The translations under genes and the position numbers were made by a program. Below the pieces are notes generated by a model. The model saw nothing but the letters and a program-made list of their open reading frames with translations, made no database searches and was not told the DNA's origin. Source: Candidatus Ozemibacter sibiricus (GTDB taxonomy: Bacteria > Muiribacteriota > Ozemobacteria > Ozemobacterales > Ozemobacteraceae). From it: 64,000 nucleotides of DNA. Location: positions 1 to 64,000 of the forward strand of contig QOQW01000006.1 in the NCBI GenBank assembly GCA_003327425.1. The letters are read 5' to 3'. Below are positions 10,409-20,211 of the stretch, piece after piece; the stretch's first letter is position 1; each line of letters starts with the position of its first letter.

Positions 10409-12721
10409 TCAGGATTGATCCAGGGTGGATTTGACGAACAGGTAGCTTTGCATGAGAGCTTTGAGCGACTCATCCGGTTGGGGCGACTGGGCGCAGGCGC
10501 GCAGCGTGGCATCCATGGCGGCGAAGGCCGCCGCGGGGTCGCCGGTCAGGGAATAGCAGAAAGCCAGCATCAGGTTCGATTCGACATCGAGCGGCGACAG
10601 GGCCACGGCCCGGGTCAGCACTTCGATGGCCTGTGGATATTCCCGCGCCTGGAGGTGGAGCATGGCCAGCTTCTGATACAGCACGGGGTTGCGCGGGGAC
10701 AGCTCGATGGCCTTCGATAGGAGCTGGATGCTTTCCGCCGTGTGCCCGCCCTGCTGGTAGATCTGGGCGAGGATGAGGTAGCCGCCCAGCAGCTTGGGGT
10801 AGATGTGCAGGGCGCGCAGGAGGTGTTCCCTGGCTTTCTCGTACTCCTTCTGCAGGTACGCGATGGTGCCCAGGTTGTAGTGGGCTTTGGCCGAGTTGGG
10901 GTGGAGCGCCAGGATTTTTTCGTAGAACCGGGCGGCTTCCGGAAATTTCTTCACTTGGAAATACAGATTGGCCAGTCCGATGGTCGCCTGCAGGTGGTCG
11001 GGGTCGGCCGCCAGTATTTTCTGGTAGATCTTCTCGGCCGAGGCGAACTCCTTGGCCTGCACGGCGCTGGCCGCCAGCTCGAGTTCGCGTTCGAACGATG
11101 GGGCCGGTCGGGCGGCCTCGGACGGGGCGACTGGGGGGGCTTGCTCCGCTGGGGCCGCCGGAGCAGCGGCCGGGGCCTCCGGTCGGGCGACCGATTCCTG
11201 GGCGGTCGGGCGGGGCGCGGCCGGCCCCGGCTGCCCGGTCGGCCCGGTTCCTTCGACCAGGTGGGCGATGAGGTCGTTGACGGCGGCCGCCAGGGACGGA
11301 TTCTGACTGATGGCTCGTCCGATCTCGCCGAGGACGAAGATGCCCGATTGCCGATGCTTGGCGTCGTTGCGGGTCAGCAGGGTCTGCAGATTGTCGAGAA
11401 CGGAAAACTCGTTCCACAGCCAGAGGGTCTTGATGACATTGGTCTTGACCCGGTTGTCCTCGTGAGAGAGCAGTTCCTTGAAGCGATGGACCAGGGCCGC
11501 CTCGGGCTTCTGCCGCGACAGCTTCTGGATCGCCTCGATGGCGTTGGCGACGACGCGCGGATCGGGGTCGTCGAGCGAGCGGACGAGCAGATCGCGGTGC
11601 CCGGGGCCGGCGCAATCACCCAGGGCGGAGACGATGGTGGCACGAACGATCGAGTTCGTCTCGCTGGGCAGTTTCTGCGCCAGCAGGTCGACGGCGCGCT
11701 GGGGCGAGCACCGGGCCAGGGCGATCACCGCCTGCACCCGCACATCGAAATTGGGATCGTCGAGGAGCGGGATGAGATGGCCCACGGCGTTGGGCGATTC
11801 GATCTTGCGCAGGGCGTTGGTGGCATTGCGACGCACGTCGGGATCTTCATCCTTCAAGGCCTGGGCCAGCTTGGGAATGAACCGCACATCGCGGATCTCG
11901 CCCATGGCATAGGCGGCCGACCCCCGGAACCACTTGTCGGGATGCGAGAGCATCTGGGTCAGGGTCTCGGAGACGTCGAAATCGCCGTATTTGAAGATGG
12001 CCTTGGCGACGTTGGCGCGGACGCGATTGTTGGGGTCTTCGAGGTAGGGCTGGATGATGCCGACGATCGAACTCGATTTGATGGCTTCGATCGCCTCGAT
12101 GGCGTTGGCGCGGACCCGGGCGTCCTCGTCGCGCAGGGCGCTCTGGAAGATGGGCAGCAGCCGCTCGTTGGCCATCGCCCCGAGGGCCATGATGATGGTG
12201 GAGCGGATGCGGGGCGATTTTTCCTGGGCCAGCAGGCGCTTGAGCAGGGGGATGGCGAAATGGCTCTTGAGTCGCCCCAGGGCGGTGATGGCCGAGATGA
12301 TGGCCTCCTCCTCGAAGAAGAGGCGACCGCCGCTGCGTTGCGAGCCCCCGGTGACGTTGGCATCGGCATACTCGTTGAGGGCCTCCATCAGCACGTTGAG
12401 GGCCTCGTCGTTCTTGATCATGCCGAGGGCCTGGGCCGCGTTGAACCGCACCTCCTGCTGACTGTCGTTGAGGGCGCTTACCAGCAGGGAGACGGCCTTG
12501 GAGCTTTCGAGGTTGCCGAGGGCGAGGGCCATGAAATCCTGGATGTTGTCGGTTTCATAGGTGCGCAGCAGGAAATCGGTGGCGCGTTCGCCCTTGAACT
12601 TGGACAGGGCGATGGCGGCTTCCCGGCGCTGGGCGTAATCTCCGCGTTGGAAGGTGTCGATGAGGGTGCCCAGCAAGGGGGCCAGTTTGGCGAGGATCGC
12701 GTCGGTCTGGGGCTTGTCCAT
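10409..12721 (-). CDS. HEAT-repeat/TPR fusion protein A
   Basis: About 770 residues. The first 480 are consecutive HEAT/PBS-lyase-type repeats, each with D/P-xVR-x-A helices (for example DEDARVRANAIEAIEAIK, DPNNRVRANVAKAI). A Pro/Ala-rich linker spans about 495-545. The C-terminal 220 residues are tandem tetratricopeptide repeats (A-x(3)-Y-x(2)-IL-x(2)-P pattern). No signal peptide or membrane segment is seen, so it is probably a cytoplasmic scaffold. A GTG at 12733, four codons earlier, is an alternative start. It is divergent from the PilT cluster and shares its architecture with the HEAT-TPR protein at 14991, which suggests a common job with the PilT ATPases; that link is inference. A TACACT -10-like hexamer lies at 12764-12769. 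Confidence 0.82.
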   Translation of the reverse strand: MDKPQTDAILAKLAPLLGTLIDTFQRGDYAQRREAAIALSKFKGERATDFLLRTYETDNIQDFMALALGNLESSKAVSLLVSALNDSQQEVRFNAAQALGMIKNDEALNVLMEALNEYADANVTGGSQRSGGRLFFEEEAIISAITALGRLKSHFAIPLLKRLLAQEKSPRIRSTIIMALGAMANERLLPIFQSALRDEDARVRANAIEAIEAIKSSSIVGIIQPYLEDPNNRVRANVAKAIFKYGDFDVSETLTQMLSHPDKWFRGSAAYAMGEIRDVRFIPKLAQALKDEDPDVRRNATNALRKIESPNAVGHLIPLLDDPNFDVRVQAVIALARCSPQRAVDLLAQKLPSETNSIVRATIVSALGDCAGPGHRDLLVRSLDDPDPRVVANAIEAIQKLSRQKPEAALVHRFKELLSHEDNRVKTNVIKTLWLWNEFSVLDNLQTLLTRNDAKHRQSGIFVLGEIGRAISQNPSLAAAVNDLIAHLVEGTGPTGQPGPAAPRPTAQESVARPEAPAAAPAAPAEQAPPVAPSEAARPAPSFERELELAASAVQAKEFASAEKIYQKILAADPDHLQATIGLANLYFQVKKFPEAARFYEKILALHPNSAKAHYNLGTIAYLQKEYEKAREHLLRALHIYPKLLGGYLILAQIYQQGGHTAESIQLLSKAIELSPRNPVLYQKLAMLHLQAREYPQAIEVLTRAVALSPLDVESNLMLAFCYSLTGDPAAAFAAMDATLRACAQSPQPDESLKALMQSYLFVKSTLDQS

Positions 12722-12849
12722 GGGCTTTCTCACTGTTCATGCCGATTCCGGCGGTTTTCCCGCAGTGTAGCACGGAAATCCCCGCGGGAAAAGAGGGCGG
12801 CCTCGCGGGGTTTTCCCGGGTTGATGGATAGGTACCGAGAAGAACAAGG

Positions 12850-12858
12850 TGGTATACT
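12850..12858 (+). promoter_or_regulatory. extended -10 promoter of the PilT cluster, possibly leaderless
   Basis: TGG-TATACT (12850-12858) ends 8 bases before the ATG at 12867. No Shine-Dalgarno sequence fits in that space and no good -35 is seen. With a usual -10 to start distance, transcription would begin at or within two bases of the start codon. Confidence 0.5.
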
Positions 12859-12866
12859 GGCAGGGT

Positions 12867-13946
12867 ATGGCTGACGAGACCAGTTTGTACCAGTTGTTGA
12901 AGCACACCTACGAGTGCCGGGGATCCGACCTCCACCTGAAGGTCGGTCTGCCGCCGGCCATCCGTATCGATGGGGCGATCACCCAGGTCGACGGGGTCCG
13001 GTTCAATCGTCGGGAGTTCGAAAAGGTGATCGAGGCCCTGCTGACCCCCGCCCAGCAGGACCGCTTCAAGGCCGGCGGCGAACTCGATTTCGCCTACGCG
13101 CTCGAGGGGGTCTGCCGATTCCGGGTCAACCTCTATCGCGACATCAACGGCATCGGCGCGGTCTTCCGCGTCATTCCCTACAAGGTCTTCACCTTCGAGG
13201 AGATCGGTCTGCCGCTGGCCGCCCAGAAACTGATCGAGCAACCCAACGGGCTGATCCTGATCACGGGCCCGACCGGCGCCGGCAAGACCTCGACCCTGGC
13301 CAGCTACATCAGCTACGTCAACGCCAAGGCGCGACGCCACATCATCACCATCGAAGACCCCATCGAATTCCAGTTCGAAGACCAGCTCAGCATCATCAAC
13401 CAGCGTCAGGTCGGCGCCGATGTGCCCGGCTTCTACGAAGGACTGTTGACCGTGCTGCGTCAGGATCCCGATATCGTGGTGGTCGGCGAGATGCGCGAAC
13501 CTCGCACCATCGCCCTGACCCTGAACGCCGCCGAGACCGGCAAGCTGGTGCTGGCTACCCTGCATACCACCTCGGCGGTCCAGACCGCCGAACGGATCAT
13601 CAACGTCTTTCCCGAGAACCAGCAGCGGCAGATCCTGCATCAGTTGTCGATGGTCCTGCGGGGGGTGATCTCGCAGACCCTCCTGCCGAAGATCGGTGGC
13701 GGGCGGGTGGCGGCCTTCGAGGTGCTGATCAACACCTCGGCCGTGCGCTCGTTGATCGGAGAGGGCAAGATCCACCTGATTCCGAGCTTCCTCGAGACCG
13801 GCACCGAGTATGGCATGCAGACCATGGACATGTCGATGGTGCAACTGGTCAAGAATGGGCTGGTCAAAGCCGAAGAGGCGCTGGCCCATTCGCCCACGCC
13901 GGCCAATCTGAAGAAACTGCTGCAGGCCCTCCGGGACCGGGACTAG
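12867..13946 (+). CDS. PilT-type retraction ATPase, canonical (copy 1)
   Basis: A hexameric AAA-like secretion ATPase of the PilT family, which drives type IV pilus retraction from the cytoplasmic side. It has 359 residues. The N-terminal PAS-like domain starts with SDLHLKVG. Walker A GPTGAGKT lies near residue 134, the Asp box TIEDPIEF near 162, Walker B VVVGEMRE near 203 and the His box TLHTTSA near 231. All catalytic residues are present. The C-terminal part, normally carrying the AIRNLI motif, reads SAVRSLI. The frame stays open to a GTG at 12849, but the ATG at 12867 fits the family N-terminus and the promoter. It is first of a co-directional run with spacings of 10, -4, 76, 4 and -4 bases. 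Confidence 0.93.
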   Translation: MADETSLYQLLKHTYECRGSDLHLKVGLPPAIRIDGAITQVDGVRFNRREFEKVIEALLTPAQQDRFKAGGELDFAYALEGVCRFRVNLYRDINGIGAVFRVIPYKVFTFEEIGLPLAAQKLIEQPNGLILITGPTGAGKTSTLASYISYVNAKARRHIITIEDPIEFQFEDQLSIINQRQVGADVPGFYEGLLTVLRQDPDIVVVGEMREPRTIALTLNAAETGKLVLATLHTTSAVQTAERIINVFPENQQRQILHQLSMVLRGVISQTLLPKIGGGRVAAFEVLINTSAVRSLIGEGKIHLIPSFLETGTEYGMQTMDMSMVQLVKNGLVKAEEALAHSPTPANLKKLLQALRDRD

Positions 13947-13956
13947 GAGGCAAGGC

Positions 13957-14994
13957 ATGCTGCGCATCCATTCCTACTTCGAAACCGCCATCGCCCGTCG
14001 GGCCTCCGACCTCCATCTGAAATGCGGCAGCCCGCCCACCCTGCGCATCGGCGGGCGCCTGGTGCCCCTGCCCGAAGAACCGCTGGCCCACCAGGAGATG
14101 CCCAATCTGTTCCTGCCGCTGATGGATGTCCGGCAGCAGGAGCAGTTCCGGGCCTGCCTGGAAGCCAATTTCATGATCAACTACCAGAACCGGTGGCGGA
14201 TCCGCGCCTGCATCTTCCGGCAGCGGGGCAGCCTGTCGGGGGCCTTCCGGTTCATTCCCACCAAGGTGCCGAGCATCGACCAGCTCAAGCTGCCGGTGCG
14301 CCTGAAGGAGATGGCCCTGCGTCCGCGCGGCCTGTTCCTGGTGACCGGGCCGGCCAACAGCGGCAAATCGCACACGCTGGCCGCCATGGTCCATGAAATC
14401 AACAAGAGCAGCGCGCGGCACATCGTCACCATCGAGGATCCGATCGAATTCGTCCACAAGCCGCGGCGCTCGATCTTCACCCAGCGCGAGATCGGCCTGA
14501 TGACCAAAGATTACCAGTCGGCCCTGATCTACGCCCTGCGCGAAGACCCCGATGTCATCCTGGTCGGCGAGATGCGCGACATCACCACCATCGAGATGGT
14601 GCTGACCGCGGCCGAGACCGGGCACCTGGTCCTGTCGACCCTGCATACGGTCGGCGCCGTGCAGACCATCGATCGCATCATCAACGTCTTCCCCGGTCAT
14701 CGGCACGATGAGATCCGCACCCAGCTCTCGCTGTCGCTGCTGGGCACCATCTCCCAGATCCTGCTCCCCGGCCGGGAGAAGAACGAACGGGTGATGGCCT
14801 ACGAGCTGATGATCCTCAACCCCGCCATGCGCAACCTGATCCGCGAGAAGAAGACGAACCAGTTGAAGTCGGCGCTGATGCTGGCACGCAAGGAAGGGTG
14901 CGTCACCCTCAAGGACAACCTCACCGAGCTGCTGCGCGATGAACGGGTCGATGCCCGGCTGATCAACGCGCTGATGAAGGAGATCGTCGAATGA
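13957..14994 (+). CDS. PilT-type ATPase, canonical (copy 2)
   Basis: Encodes 345 residues, a paralogue of the preceding gene. The N-terminus again has ASDLHLKCG. Walker A GPANSGKS is near residue 131, the Asp box TIEDPIEF near 159, Walker B VILVGEMRD near 203 and the His box TLHTVGA near 229, so it should hydrolyse ATP. The C-terminal AMRNLIREKK matches the PilT AIRNLIRE motif better than copy 1 does. AGGAGG precedes the ATG by 6 bases. Its stop overlaps the next start (ATGA). PilT/PilU pairs are common in pilus systems, and copies 1 and 2 could be such a pair. Confidence 0.93.
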   Translation: MLRIHSYFETAIARRASDLHLKCGSPPTLRIGGRLVPLPEEPLAHQEMPNLFLPLMDVRQQEQFRACLEANFMINYQNRWRIRACIFRQRGSLSGAFRFIPTKVPSIDQLKLPVRLKEMALRPRGLFLVTGPANSGKSHTLAAMVHEINKSSARHIVTIEDPIEFVHKPRRSIFTQREIGLMTKDYQSALIYALREDPDVILVGEMRDITTIEMVLTAAETGHLVLSTLHTVGAVQTIDRIINVFPGHRHDEIRTQLSLSLLGTISQILLPGREKNERVMAYELMILNPAMRNLIREKKTNQLKSALMLARKEGCVTLKDNLTELLRDERVDARLINALMKEIVE

Positions 14995-17153
14995 GCCTGG
15001 GGCCCGAACTCGAACCCTTCCGGCTGGTCAAGGCGGCCCGCCGGCTGCTGCGGCCGGCCACCGCCGCGCTCGAGGCGCGCGTCGCGGCGGGCGACGACGA
15101 TGACGCCCTCTATGCCGCCCTGCTCGCTCTCGGCAAGATCGGCGACCCCGCCTCCCTCGAGGTGCTGCAGGGGGCGCTCGATCGGTTCCCCGAGCGGCCG
15201 GAGCCCATCGCCGCCCTCGGCCATTACCGCAGCAGCACGCCGGTGCCCAAGCTGCTCAAGCTGCTCGAGAACCCCGATCATCCGTTCAAGGAGGAAGTGG
15301 TGCGGGTGCTCGGCGAGATCGGCGATCCGATGGCCGGCAAGGTGTTGAAGGAGCTGCTCCATGACCAGGACCGCATGGTGCGATACCATGCCGCCTGGGC
15401 GTTGTACAAGATCGGCGGGCGCGATGTGGCCCAGAGCCTGTGCCGTCTGCTGTCCGACCCGGACGAATGGATCGTCATCAACGTCCTGGAGATCCTGTCC
15501 CGCCTCAAGGAGGTCGAGGCCATTCCTTCGCTGGTGGGGCAGTTCGAGATCGCGCGCGATCCGCGGTTGAAGGCGATCATCATCAGCACCCTGGCCAGCT
15601 TCGGCGAGACCCAGCTGCTCAAGGTCTTCGAAGAGGGCCTGAAATCGTTCGACCCCCGCATCCAGGCCAATGCCGTCGAGGCGATCAGCCTGCTCAAGAT
15701 CTCGGGACTCGAGATGAAACGCAAGCTCAAGCGGTTCTACGGGCATTCCAACAACCGGGTGCGGGCCAATACCGCCCTGGCCCTGCATCGCATCGACGAG
15801 GCCACCGTCACCCAGGAGATCCAGGCCATGCTCGACAGCCCCGATGTGGCCACGCGGCGCTCGGCCGCCTTCGTCCTGTCGAAGGCCGCCCTGCCCGGCC
15901 GCGATGCCATGATCGACCGGCTGCTCGGCGATCCGTCCTATGCCGTGCGGAAGATGGCCCTCAAAGCCGCTCTGGCCCTCGAGACCGGGGTCTCCATCGG
16001 TCGCATCCAGCCGCTGCTGACCGATCAGAACATCTGGGTCAGGCGCGAAGCGGTCGATTGCGCCCGCAAGATCCCCGAATTCCCCGCCGCGGTCATCCTC
16101 GAGGCCTTCAAGGCCGAGAAGAGCCCTCCCGTGCTCGACAGCATGCTCGATTTCATCGTCGAGCGGCACCTCGATCAGGCCGTCGACGCCATCCTGGCCA
16201 AGATCCGCGAAGAGCCCGAGGAGGGACTGCCCAAACTGCTGTCGGCGCTGGGCCACCTCGAGGCGCGGGACGCCATCCTCAAGGCGCGCAAATCCTTGGG
16301 TGCCGCGACCCCCGAGATCATGCGGGAATACTACATCGCCCTCCTCCTGCATGGCGACCTCGGGGTGCTGGCAGAGATCAGCGCCGCCCTCCAGGACCGG
16401 AAACGGGAGGAGGAGGTCCTCCTGCACATCGAGCTGGCCGGCGAGCTGGGCGCCTTCCTGCAGCAGACCGACCGGTTCTCGCGGCGGCTGCATGAAGCCC
16501 TGGCCGCCGAAGTCGCCAAAGACCTGGCCGGGGTGGCGACGCTCGACGCGCCTCCCGCCCCGCCCGCCCTCCAGAAGGACGCTCTGCCGCGCGGGCTCGA
16601 ACTGGTGGCGCAGGGCCGGCTCGAAGAGGCCATCCGGTTCTTCGAGGAGTATCTGCGCGCATTTCCCGGCAGCACCGAGGCGCTCTACCATCTGGCTGCC
16701 GCCCTGTTCCGCCAGGGGGAGGTCGAAAAGGCCCTGCCCATCTTGCTCGAGCTGCTCGAGAAAGCCCCCGGCCATGTCGCCGGCGAATTGCTGCTGGGGC
16801 AGATCCATTTCCAGCGCAAGCGCTGGGATGAGCTGATGAAGCTCTATGAAAACCTGTGCGGCCGGCTCCCCCGGGATGACCCCAAAACGCTCGGCCAGGT
16901 GCAGGGGGCCCTGGGGCTGGCCTATTTCCATCTCAAACGCTACCAGAAGGCCATCGAAACCCTGAACCAGGCCATGGCGACCAACCCGCGCGATCTGTCC
17001 TCCTGCTACCACCTCGCCCTTTGCTACTATGCGGTCAAGGAGCACGCCAAAGCGCTCGGGCTGCTGCGGAACCTGAAGGCCACCCTGCCGGCCGACAGTC
17101 GTGTCTTCCGCAATGTCGAAGAACTGATCCAGAAATTGGAAGACGAGGGTTGA
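14991..17153 (+). CDS. HEAT-repeat/TPR fusion protein B
   Basis: Encodes 720 residues with the same order of domains as protein A at 10409-12721. Residues about 15-500 are HEAT repeats, several with clear D-P-xVR signatures (DPRIQANAVEAI, SNNRVRANTALAL). A short Pro/Ala linker lies near 515-530. Residues about 535-715 are tetratricopeptide repeats (EEAIRFFEEYLRAFPGS, QKAIETLNQAMATNP). There is no signal or membrane segment. Translation is coupled to PilT copy 2 by a 4-base overlap, which makes a physical or functional partnership with the PilT ATPases likely. No known pilus protein with this composition comes to mind. Confidence 0.85.
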   Translation: MSLGPELEPFRLVKAARRLLRPATAALEARVAAGDDDDALYAALLALGKIGDPASLEVLQGALDRFPERPEPIAALGHYRSSTPVPKLLKLLENPDHPFKEEVVRVLGEIGDPMAGKVLKELLHDQDRMVRYHAAWALYKIGGRDVAQSLCRLLSDPDEWIVINVLEILSRLKEVEAIPSLVGQFEIARDPRLKAIIISTLASFGETQLLKVFEEGLKSFDPRIQANAVEAISLLKISGLEMKRKLKRFYGHSNNRVRANTALALHRIDEATVTQEIQAMLDSPDVATRRSAAFVLSKAALPGRDAMIDRLLGDPSYAVRKMALKAALALETGVSIGRIQPLLTDQNIWVRREAVDCARKIPEFPAAVILEAFKAEKSPPVLDSMLDFIVERHLDQAVDAILAKIREEPEEGLPKLLSALGHLEARDAILKARKSLGAATPEIMREYYIALLLHGDLGVLAEISAALQDRKREEEVLLHIELAGELGAFLQQTDRFSRRLHEALAAEVAKDLAGVATLDAPPAPPALQKDALPRGLELVAQGRLEEAIRFFEEYLRAFPGSTEALYHLAAALFRQGEVEKALPILLELLEKAPGHVAGELLLGQIHFQRKRWDELMKLYENLCGRLPRDDPKTLGQVQGALGLAYFHLKRYQKAIETLNQAMATNPRDLSSCYHLALCYYAVKEHAKALGLLRNLKATLPADSRVFRNVEELIQKLEDEG

Positions 17154-18295: not shown

Positions 18296-19333
18296 ATGGA
18301 CCTGAAGAACCTGCTTGCCAAGATCCATCAACAGGGCGCCACCGAACTGCACCTGAAGGCCGGATCGCCGCCGCTGATCCGGCAGAACCGCTTTCTGCGC
18401 AAGATCGATCTGCCGGCCCTGACGCCCGATGACCTGAAGGACGTGCTGCAGACGGCGCTGCCCGAGGAAGAACGGAAACGCCTGCCCGCCTTGCGGTTCC
18501 ACGAGGTCAACGTCTTCGGCGAGCCTCCGTGCAACTATCGGTTGCAGGTCCTGCAGGCTCAGGGCGAGTTCATCGTCATCATCCGCATCATCGCGGCCAC
18601 GGTGCCGGGCTGGCCAGAGCTGGGGTTCCCCTTCGCCCTCGAGCCCCTGACCAAAGCGGCGATGGGCCTGTTCATCCTGGCTGGACCGGCCCGCTCCGGC
18701 ATCTCGACCTCGCTCGCCTCGTTCGTCGAACGGATCAACCAGAACCGGCCATCCCATATCCTGGTGATCGAGGATCCGATCGAGTACACCTTCGAGCCGA
18801 AGAAGGCGCGCATCTCGCATCGCCAGTTCAAGAAGGACATCCAATCGGTCGAGCAGGGCATCAATTTCGCCAAACGCATGGACGTCGATGTCCTGGTCCT
18901 GGGCGATTTGAAGCGGGAACTGCCGTTCGGCAACATCCTCGATTTCGTGGCCGGCGGCCATTTCGTCGTCCTGTCGATGCAGACCTTGGGCGTGCAGAAT
19001 ACGGTCGAGAAGATCCTGTATTCCTTCCCAGAATCCGACCGCGAGCATGCAGCCAATGTCCTGGCGCATTCCCTCCTGGGCATCTGCTCGCAGGCTCTGT
19101 TGCACAGTCCGACGCAGAATCGGATGGTCCCGGTGCACGAAGTGATGCTGGTCAACAACACGCTGCGCCAGATCATCCAGAAAGGGCGCACCGCGCAGAT
19201 CGATCCCAATCTGCGGTCGGCGGGCGAAGGCAGCCAGCCGTTCGATGTGCCGTTGGCCAAGCTGGTGCGCGACCAGGTGCTGCCCAAGGAGGCGGTCGAC
19301 GCCTTCCTGGCGTCCTTCAGGGGGGGGAAATGA
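18296..19333 (+). CDS. PilT-like protein with destroyed Walker A lysine (copy 4), probable pseudo-ATPase
   Basis: Encodes 345 residues, full PilT length. The P-loop reads GPARSGIS at residues 130-137; codon 136 (18701-18703) is ATC, giving Ile where the invariant Lys should be. The Asp box IEDPIEY is kept. Walker B reads VLVLGDLKRE, with Glu changed to Asp. The His box reads SMQTLGV, with Gln 229 for His. The reading frame is intact and the protein otherwise well conserved, so it is a maintained protein rather than a decaying gene. A structural or regulatory subunit of a mixed PilT ring is the likeliest role. It overlaps the following pseudopilin gene by 4 bases (ATGA). Confidence 0.9.
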   Translation: MDLKNLLAKIHQQGATELHLKAGSPPLIRQNRFLRKIDLPALTPDDLKDVLQTALPEEERKRLPALRFHEVNVFGEPPCNYRLQVLQAQGEFIVIIRIIAATVPGWPELGFPFALEPLTKAAMGLFILAGPARSGISTSLASFVERINQNRPSHILVIEDPIEYTFEPKKARISHRQFKKDIQSVEQGINFAKRMDVDVLVLGDLKRELPFGNILDFVAGGHFVVLSMQTLGVQNTVEKILYSFPESDREHAANVLAHSLLGICSQALLHSPTQNRMVPVHEVMLVNNTLRQIIQKGRTAQIDPNLRSAGEGSQPFDVPLAKLVRDQVLPKEAVDAFLASFRGGK

Positions 19334-19737
19334 AGCGAATGTCGTCGAACGGGTCTCGGCAGGCGCGGGGCTGCCGCCACGGCTTCACGTTGATCGAAAT
19401 GAGCGTGGTGGTGGCCATCATCGGGATCTTGTACTTCACCGTGGTGCCGCTCTACGGAACCACCATCCAGCGGGCGCGCGAAACCGCTCTGCGAGAGAAT
19501 CTCCAGGTGCTGCGCAAGACCATCGACCTCTACTTCAAGGATCGGGAGGTCTGGCCGGCCGATCTGGCGACCTTGGTGAAAGATGGCTACCTGCGCGCCG
19601 TGCCGGTCGATCCTCTGACCGGCCGAGCCGACACCTGGGTCACCGTGCCGTCGAACGTCGGCGCCTTCGATGTCTTCGATGTCCATTCGGGGGCGGCCGG
19701 CACCGGGCTGGACGGCACCCCGTATGCGACCTGGTAG
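19330..19737 (+). CDS. type IV pilin/GspG-like prepilin
   Basis: Encodes 135 residues. It has a classical prepilin signal: an 18-residue basic leader ending in RHG, then FTLIE, so a prepilin peptidase should cut after Gly18 and leave Phe1 with the conserved Glu5. A hydrophobic helix of about 20 residues follows. The rest resembles minor pseudopilins: a helix around ALRENLQVLRKTIDLYF, then WPADLATLVKDGYLRAVPVDPLTG, which is the GspG-type layout. It overlaps the stop of PilT-like copy 4. Together with the next gene it supplies exported filament or initiator subunits for this machine. Confidence 0.9.
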   Translation: MKRMSSNGSRQARGCRHGFTLIEMSVVVAIIGILYFTVVPLYGTTIQRARETALRENLQVLRKTIDLYFKDREVWPADLATLVKDGYLRAVPVDPLTGRADTWVTVPSNVGAFDVFDVHSGAAGTGLDGTPYATW

Positions 19738-19773: not shown

Positions 19774-20211
19774 ATGACCCCGGGTCAGCCCAGCCGTGAG
19801 GCAGCCGGCCGTTTCTCGCCCCCAGGGAGACGAGCAAGCTCCGACCGAAGGCGGGGAACCGCCCTGCTCGTGCTGGTGCTGAGCCTGATCTTGCTGGGCG
19901 TCGGCCTGGCAGTGGGCCTGCCACGCGCCACCCACGACGTGAAACGGGCCAGGGAGGTGCAATTGCGCTTCATCCTCGGCGAGTATCGACGGGCGGCCGC
20001 CCGCTTTCGGGAGCGGCACGGCCGGTGGCCCACCCGCCTCGAGGAGCTGGAGGCGGACGCCAGTGGCGTCCGTTACCTGCGCCGCCGCTATCGCGACCCC
20101 ATGACGGGAACGTTGGATTGGCAGGTCGATCTGGCGGGCGACCAGTTCTGCGTTCGCTCGACCAGCTCTGACCTCAGCCTGGCCGGGGTTCCCTACCGGG
20201 AGTGGCGTTGA
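19774..20211 (+). CDS. GspG-like pseudopilin with atypical leader
   Basis: Encodes 145 residues. After a basic leader ending RRRG (Gly28) comes TALLVLVLSLILLGVG, a hydrophobic helix lacking the Glu5 that pilins use to enter the growing filament. The C-terminal half contains the pattern ERHGRWPTRLEEL, then YLRRRYRDPMTG followed by LDWQVDL, typical of GspG-like pseudopilins. Either it is cleaved by the prepilin peptidase as a tip or minor pseudopilin (GspK-type proteins also lack Glu5), or it stays as a membrane-anchored protein. GGAGG lies 8 bases before the ATG. It ends the PilT gene run. Confidence 0.8.
   Translation: MTPGQPSREAAGRFSPPGRRASSDRRRGTALLVLVLSLILLGVGLAVGLPRATHDVKRAREVQLRFILGEYRRAAARFRERHGRWPTRLEELEADASGVRYLRRRYRDPMTGTLDWQVDLAGDQFCVRSTSSDLSLAGVPYREWR

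Follow-up and report, generated by a model that had tools for sequence, protein, structure and literature searches.

The locus raises the question of why a PilT-like gene that has lost the P-loop lysine should persist with an intact frame, and what its product might still contribute. We analysed 64,000 nucleotides of DNA from Candidatus Ozemibacter sibiricus (the window), which belong to contig C39 of a draft genome in 58 contigs (5.7 Mb, 97.9% complete) and hold four PilT-like genes, c1 to c4. Together with a gene for a HEAT and TPR repeat protein (HT), these are arranged in the order c1, c2, HT, c3, c4, prepilin (Table 1). The initial annotation singled out c4 as a selected pseudo-ATPase subunit. 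We replace that focus on c4 alone with the c3-c4 pair, the complementary degeneracy of c3 having been missed earlier.

Table 1 Features of the PilT-like cluster, in window coordinates
Feature	Position	Strand	Remarks
H0, divergent HEAT + TPR repeat protein	10409..12733	-	Pfam matches
c1, canonical PilT-family ATPase	12849..13946	+	GPTGAGKT / GEMR / LHT; pilT_fam 420.3 bits, above cut-off
c2, canonical PilT-family ATPase	13957..14994	+	GPANSGKS / GEMR / LHT; pilT_fam 392.2 bits, above cut-off
HT, HEAT + TPR repeat protein between c2 and c3	14991..17153	+	HEAT_2 + TPR Pfam matches; syntenic in most loci
c3, second putative PilT-derived pseudo-ATPase, 353 aa	17230..18291	+	Motif losses, PilT/PilU fold
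c4, putative PilT-derived pseudo-ATPase, 345 aa	18296..19333	+	ORF with intact frame
c4 degenerate P-loop GPARSGIS	18683..18706	+	GGA CCG GCC CGC TCC GGC ATC TCG
c4 Arg133	18692-18694	+	Invariant, 19/19 orthologues
c4 Ile136, codon ATC	18701-18703	+	Ile in 19/19 orthologues
c4 Asp204, replacing the catalytic Walker B Glu	18905..18907	+	Asp 18/19, Glu in locus L038 only
c4 Gln229, replacing the gamma-phosphate-coordinating His-box His	18980..18982	+	Gln 17, Ser 1, Pro 1 (n = 19)
Prepilin / GspG-like pseudopilin	19330..19737	+	N_methyl PF07963 and IV_pilin_GFxxxE, above cut-off
Second pilin-like small protein, one N-terminal hydrophobic helix	19774..20211	+	By appearance only; conserved downstream, about 12 loci

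The P-loop of c4, its ATC codon and the uninterrupted reading frame are as first described. The two further substitutions claimed for the protein, at the His box and at the Walker B glutamate, are borne out by an alignment with Pseudomonas aeruginosa PilT that is gapless and keeps the same numbering to about residue 273: Lys136, Glu204 and His229 of PilT are Ile, Asp and Gln in c4. In PilT, Glu204 is catalytic and His229 coordinates the gamma-phosphate (PMC6858323, PMC6762196). With the P-loop lysine gone, the c4 site should not bind Mg-ATP productively, and with the Glu to Asp and His to Gln changes it should not hydrolyse ATP. Other elements of the site are retained in all 19 orthologues, namely the Asp-box Glu163, a position at which all of c1 to c4 carry Glu, and the first arginine finger, R82. 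At the second finger position, R97, the orthologues carry Lys (14), Arg (3) or His (2); both fingers follow our own mapping of PilB R271 and R286. Conservation does not extend to the AIRNLIRE region of c4.

Beyond the active site, c4 still resembles PilT throughout. It scores 46.3 bits against T2SSE (PF00437; gathering cut-off 24.9) and 211.4 bits against TIGR01420 (pilT_fam), below the curated cut-off of 319.1, and its profile matches solved PilT sequences end to end. An AF2 model built from the family alignment (pLDDT 85.9) has the two-domain PilT fold, PAS-like plus RecA-like, and its best PDB matches in Foldseek are PilT2 and PilT4 over the whole length (TM 0.80-0.89). Confidence is among the lowest in this model at the P-loop, where pLDDT averages 66 over residues 131-140.

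Whether the loss of the lysine reflects damage or selection can be judged from the relatives of this locus. We compared 19 loci, the window and 18 more from a second collection, all from Ca. Riflebacteria, family Ozemobacteraceae; the named relatives of the locus are almost all metagenome-assembled genomes. The aligned orthologues have Ile, not Lys, at residue 136 in every case, so the objection that related genes might keep the lysine fails, and the 18 from outside the window all come from separate assemblies. None of the 19 carries the Walker A motif GxxxxGK[ST]; the replacement motif GPxRSGI[ST] is fixed among them. Residue 133, invariably Arg in c4, is Gly in c1, Asn in c2 and Gly or Cys in c3. 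The other PilT- or PilB-like paralogues of the genome (13 checked, including c1) all have GxxxxGK[ST], as does c2. The codon for Ile136 occurs as ATC, ATT and ATA, and has changed at least eight times on the c4 protein tree, always synonymously and with no replacement. By our own codon-table estimate, about 17-25% of changes to an Ile codon would be synonymous without selection, and eight out of eight would then have a chance probability of the order of 1e-5 if the residue were not under selection. The dN/dS check suggested at the outset gave 0.047 for c4 (NG86, pairwise with the nearest orthologue), and a codon model gave gene-wide omega values of 0.074 for c4, 0.063 for c3, 0.051 for c1 and 0.041 for c2. 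By these values, c4 changes at a somewhat higher rate than the catalytic c1 and c2, yet under clear purifying selection.

These observations leave next to no room for chance loss of the lysine codon in one genome, whether by decay or through an assembly error. The draft state of the assembly, in its 58 contigs, speaks for such an error and nothing further does; Ile in 18 orthologues from separate assemblies, the use of three codons and at least eight synonymous changes refute it. Relaxed constraint after gene death is likewise ruled out by the intact frames and by an omega of about 0.07. It is therefore well supported by the comparison that the loss is a fixed, selected change and not damage. 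Catalytic residues have been lost from c4 and their loss is conserved in its orthologues, as is expected of a pseudoenzyme. On this comparative evidence, we read c4 as a PilT-derived pseudo-ATPase that became fixed in the common ancestor of the Ozemobacteraceae we sampled. The initial reading of c4 as a selected pseudo-ATPase has thus gained the support of the invariant Ile, the low dN/dS and the invariant motif. Inactivity is well supported by the sequence, and both the loss of ATPase activity and assembly as a subunit are predictions.

Its upstream neighbour c3 has degenerated in a different way. In 19/19 loci it retains the Walker A Lys (residue 137) together with R82 and R97, the two arginine fingers. 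The catalytic Glu is lost in all of them (E204S, with the neighbouring G203D, giving TDS for GE), as are the Asp-box Asp (D160N, ENP for EDP) and the His-box His229, which is replaced by Glu in 10 loci and by Asp in 9. Since the Lys and the arginine fingers are kept while the catalytic Glu and His are lost, established motif logic predicts a protein that binds ATP and does not hydrolyse it. It scores 68.5 bits against T2SSE (PF00437; cut-off 24.9) and 265.2 bits against TIGR01420 (below the cut-off of 319.1). An AF2 model from the family alignment (pLDDT 85.4), whose top PDB matches are PilT and PilU over the whole length, gives c3 the same two-domain fold.

The two degenerate genes travel together. 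They are adjacent and in the same order, with c3 directly upstream, in all 19 loci; four bases separate them in the window and a few bases elsewhere. Of 36 genomes from the phylum, the same 18, all from one family, have both c3 and c4 at full length, with c4 orthologues 43-94% identical; a fragment of c4 is found in one further genome (G008). Another genome (G010) has short c4-profile fragments only, two of them on contigs C69 and C74, and two genomes (G005, 94% complete, and G013, 70%) have no clear c3 or c4 orthologues. Outside this family but within the phylum, the best matches to c4 reach no more than about 32% identity and resemble ordinary PilT. A scan of 84,980 species with short motif patterns, which could miss divergent relatives, recovered only Riflebacteria-type loci, and in a plasmid collection all matches were below 60% identity, the best of those listed, at 32%, being PilT-like. 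The apparent absence of c3 and c4 outside the phylum is drawn from these motif-based and family-level searches, which are not exhaustive. The complete Riflebacteria-type locus also occurs in a record labelled Ca. Methylomirabilis (L029), probably a MAG under a wrong name.

The four copies, each a single clade in the tree, usually lie in one cluster. Three loci (L030, L037 and L038) carry the c3-c4 pair without c1, c2 or HT beside it. A c2 orthologue is missing altogether from the genomes of the first two (G007 and G011), and in the third (G014) c2 is on a different contig. Since the pair persists without these neighbours, c3-c4 is the minimal conserved unit, and the idea that c3 and c4 depend on c1 and c2 is weakened. 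The partial distance correlation between c3 and c4, which controls for the distances of the other genes, is 0.51, among the two strongest; it has no valid significance test and is suggestive only. From pairing and motifs, we take c3 to be the obligate genetic partner of c4, degenerate in a complementary way.

The canonical copies keep their catalytic motifs. In c1 all four are intact in 14 loci apart from H222K, a His to Lys change at the first His-box position that is present in 14/14 full-length orthologues. In c2 they are intact in 14 of the 15 full-length loci; the remaining orthologue (L024:2292-3338) reads GKMRD (E204K) on a contig of 2.3x coverage, probably a sequencing error. HT and a second, divergent HEAT and TPR repeat gene, H0, flank the c1/c2 pair. 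The partial distance correlation between c2 and HT is the strongest observed (0.54), and the two are possibly a second partner pair. Downstream, the start codon of the prepilin gene overlaps the c4 stop (ATGA), and a prepilin follows c4 in most, not all, loci. Pfam and curated profile searches gave no family match for the product of the next gene, at 19774..20211. The genome as a whole (G000) has 28 matches to the PilT/PilB ATPase superfamily in its 5.7 Mb, an unusually large complement of motors for pili or secretion, and includes PilT domains fused into long ORFs, such as one of 984 aa at C39:122252.

Given these findings, we propose, with a probability of roughly 60%, that c3 and c4 join in a heteromeric PilT-like ring or adaptor which does not hydrolyse ATP and by which active PilT motors are coupled or gated. 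In this model, c3 (ATP-binding, non-hydrolysing) and c4 (nucleotide-free) would assemble into a heteromeric ring or arc, which would dock on a PilC-like pilus platform and/or under an active PilT ring, made of c1/c2 or another PilT. Binding of ATP to c3 would set the conformation of the ring while the nucleotide-free c4 interfaces stay fixed, and the assembly would act as an adaptor or clutch, either coupling active PilT rings to the platform or braking them. We infer the c3-c4 complex, its lack of ATPase activity and its role in pilus-motor regulation from sequence, and it is the neighbouring prepilin gene, and that gene only, that suggests a link to a working pilus.

Precedents for parts of this model come from Vibrio cholerae. 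There, PilT K136A gives no retraction by itself and still supports PilU-driven retraction (PMC6821130), and PilT E204A behaves as if locked in the ATP-bound state (PMC6762196). A recent study of PilU makes the case that PilT, even when catalytically inactive, can keep PilU in a competent shape, and cites density resembling PilU beneath PilT in situ (PMC13142100). In V. cholerae the two proteins appear to make separate homohexamers, not mixed rings (PMC6821130, PMC6762196), so mixing of c3 and c4 cannot be assumed. Three further points weigh against the model: the second arginine finger is Lys in 14/19 c4 proteins, the lack of conservation in AIRNLIRE may alter how c4 binds a PilC-like platform, and the c4 P-loop is modelled with low confidence.

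The formation of independent, stacking homohexamers by PilT and PilU would suit an arrangement in which c3 and c4 each make a ring of their own, stacked in the same manner as dead adaptors, with c4 permanently nucleotide-free and c3 permanently ATP-bound; apart from the lack of mixed rings, the mechanism would be that proposed above. The tree, in which c3 and c4 are each a clade without demonstrated sisterhood, is compatible with this. We regard it as unlikely, because the strict pairing of the two genes and their complementary defects are easier to explain through shared interfaces. Somewhat less probable again is that c3 and/or c4 enter hexamers of c1/c2 as non-catalytic subunits and leave only part of the interfaces to fire, on the pattern of F1-ATPase alpha/beta or of other heterohexamers. 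The usual clustering of all four copies would fit such mixed rings, as would the retention of both arginine fingers in c3 and of R82 in c4, but the pair occurs in G007 and G011 without a c2 orthologue and in G014 away from c2, which argues that the c1/c2 of the cluster are not required.

In some phage terminases a displaced Lys or Arg serves in the P-loop, and it is conceivable that Arg133, invariant in c4 and absent from c1 to c3, stands in for the lost lysine, leaving c4 able to bind a nucleotide or another phosphate ligand, with Glu163 still in place. Of the three alternatives considered here we give this the least credence: with the catalytic Glu and the His-box His also gone, a full ATPase cycle is improbable, and the PilB residue that our alignment places opposite Arg133, T327, touches the subunit next to it (PMC5424180), which suggests that Arg133 may have an interface role instead. 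A heteromeric, non-hydrolysing c3-c4 assembly remains the reading we prefer. Its boldest form holds that Ozemobacteraceae use a dedicated non-hydrolytic ring of two complementary pseudo-ATPases, one ATP-locked and one nucleotide-free, as an evolved pilus-motor clutch, and that no natural heteromeric module of pseudo-ATPases was known before in the PilT/VirB11-like motor family; this we advance tentatively, at somewhat less than even odds.

Compared with the PilT/PilU family (TIGR01420; PDB 3JVV, 6OJX, 5FL3, 9N32), c4 agrees in fold, in length and in the order of its domains (PAS-like at the N-terminus, then RecA-like), has the same Asp-box EDPxE and R82 finger, and has a pilin gene nearby. It differs in the fixed replacements of the Walker A Lys, the Walker B Glu and the His box His, in a family score below the cut-off and in the lack of conservation of AIRNLIRE. 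Annotation pipelines are prone to label both c3 and c4 as 'twitching motility ATPase PilT', a label that should be read with this warning in mind. Geobacter sulfurreducens likewise has four PilT paralogues, PilT1-4, in one genome; however, all four keep the Walker A Lys, the Walker B Glu and the Asp and His boxes (PMC5065972), whereas c3 and c4 have lost catalytic residues.

The two V. cholerae mutants have natural counterparts here. The lysine changed in PilT K136A is changed naturally in c4, to Ile instead of Ala, and the glutamate changed in PilT E204A is changed naturally in c3, to Ser instead of Ala. In c3 and c4, unlike the mutants, the changes are fixed family-wide in separate paralogues, and further residues of the site are altered. 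The division between structure and ATP turnover in PilT-like rings has been probed only with the artificial K136A and E204A mutants, where PilU can function although PilT is dead; evolution appears to have split the two mutant-like states into distinct, co-inherited proteins, c4 and c3, which offer a natural system for telling apart what ATP binding, ATP turnover and scaffolding contribute in PilT rings. In our searches of the open-access literature, we found neither a natural pseudo-ATPase of the PilT family nor a dead-paralogue arrangement in the PilT/VirB11-like family. Hetero-oligomeric ring ATPases with non-catalytic subunits include F1 alpha/beta, ClpR and CMG/MCM. Much as in those systems, catalytic and non-catalytic paralogues are kept together in c1 to c4, with a putative division of labour. 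Pseudo-ATPase subunits are already known from ring motors, and what would be new here is a co-inherited, complementary pair of them within the PilT family.
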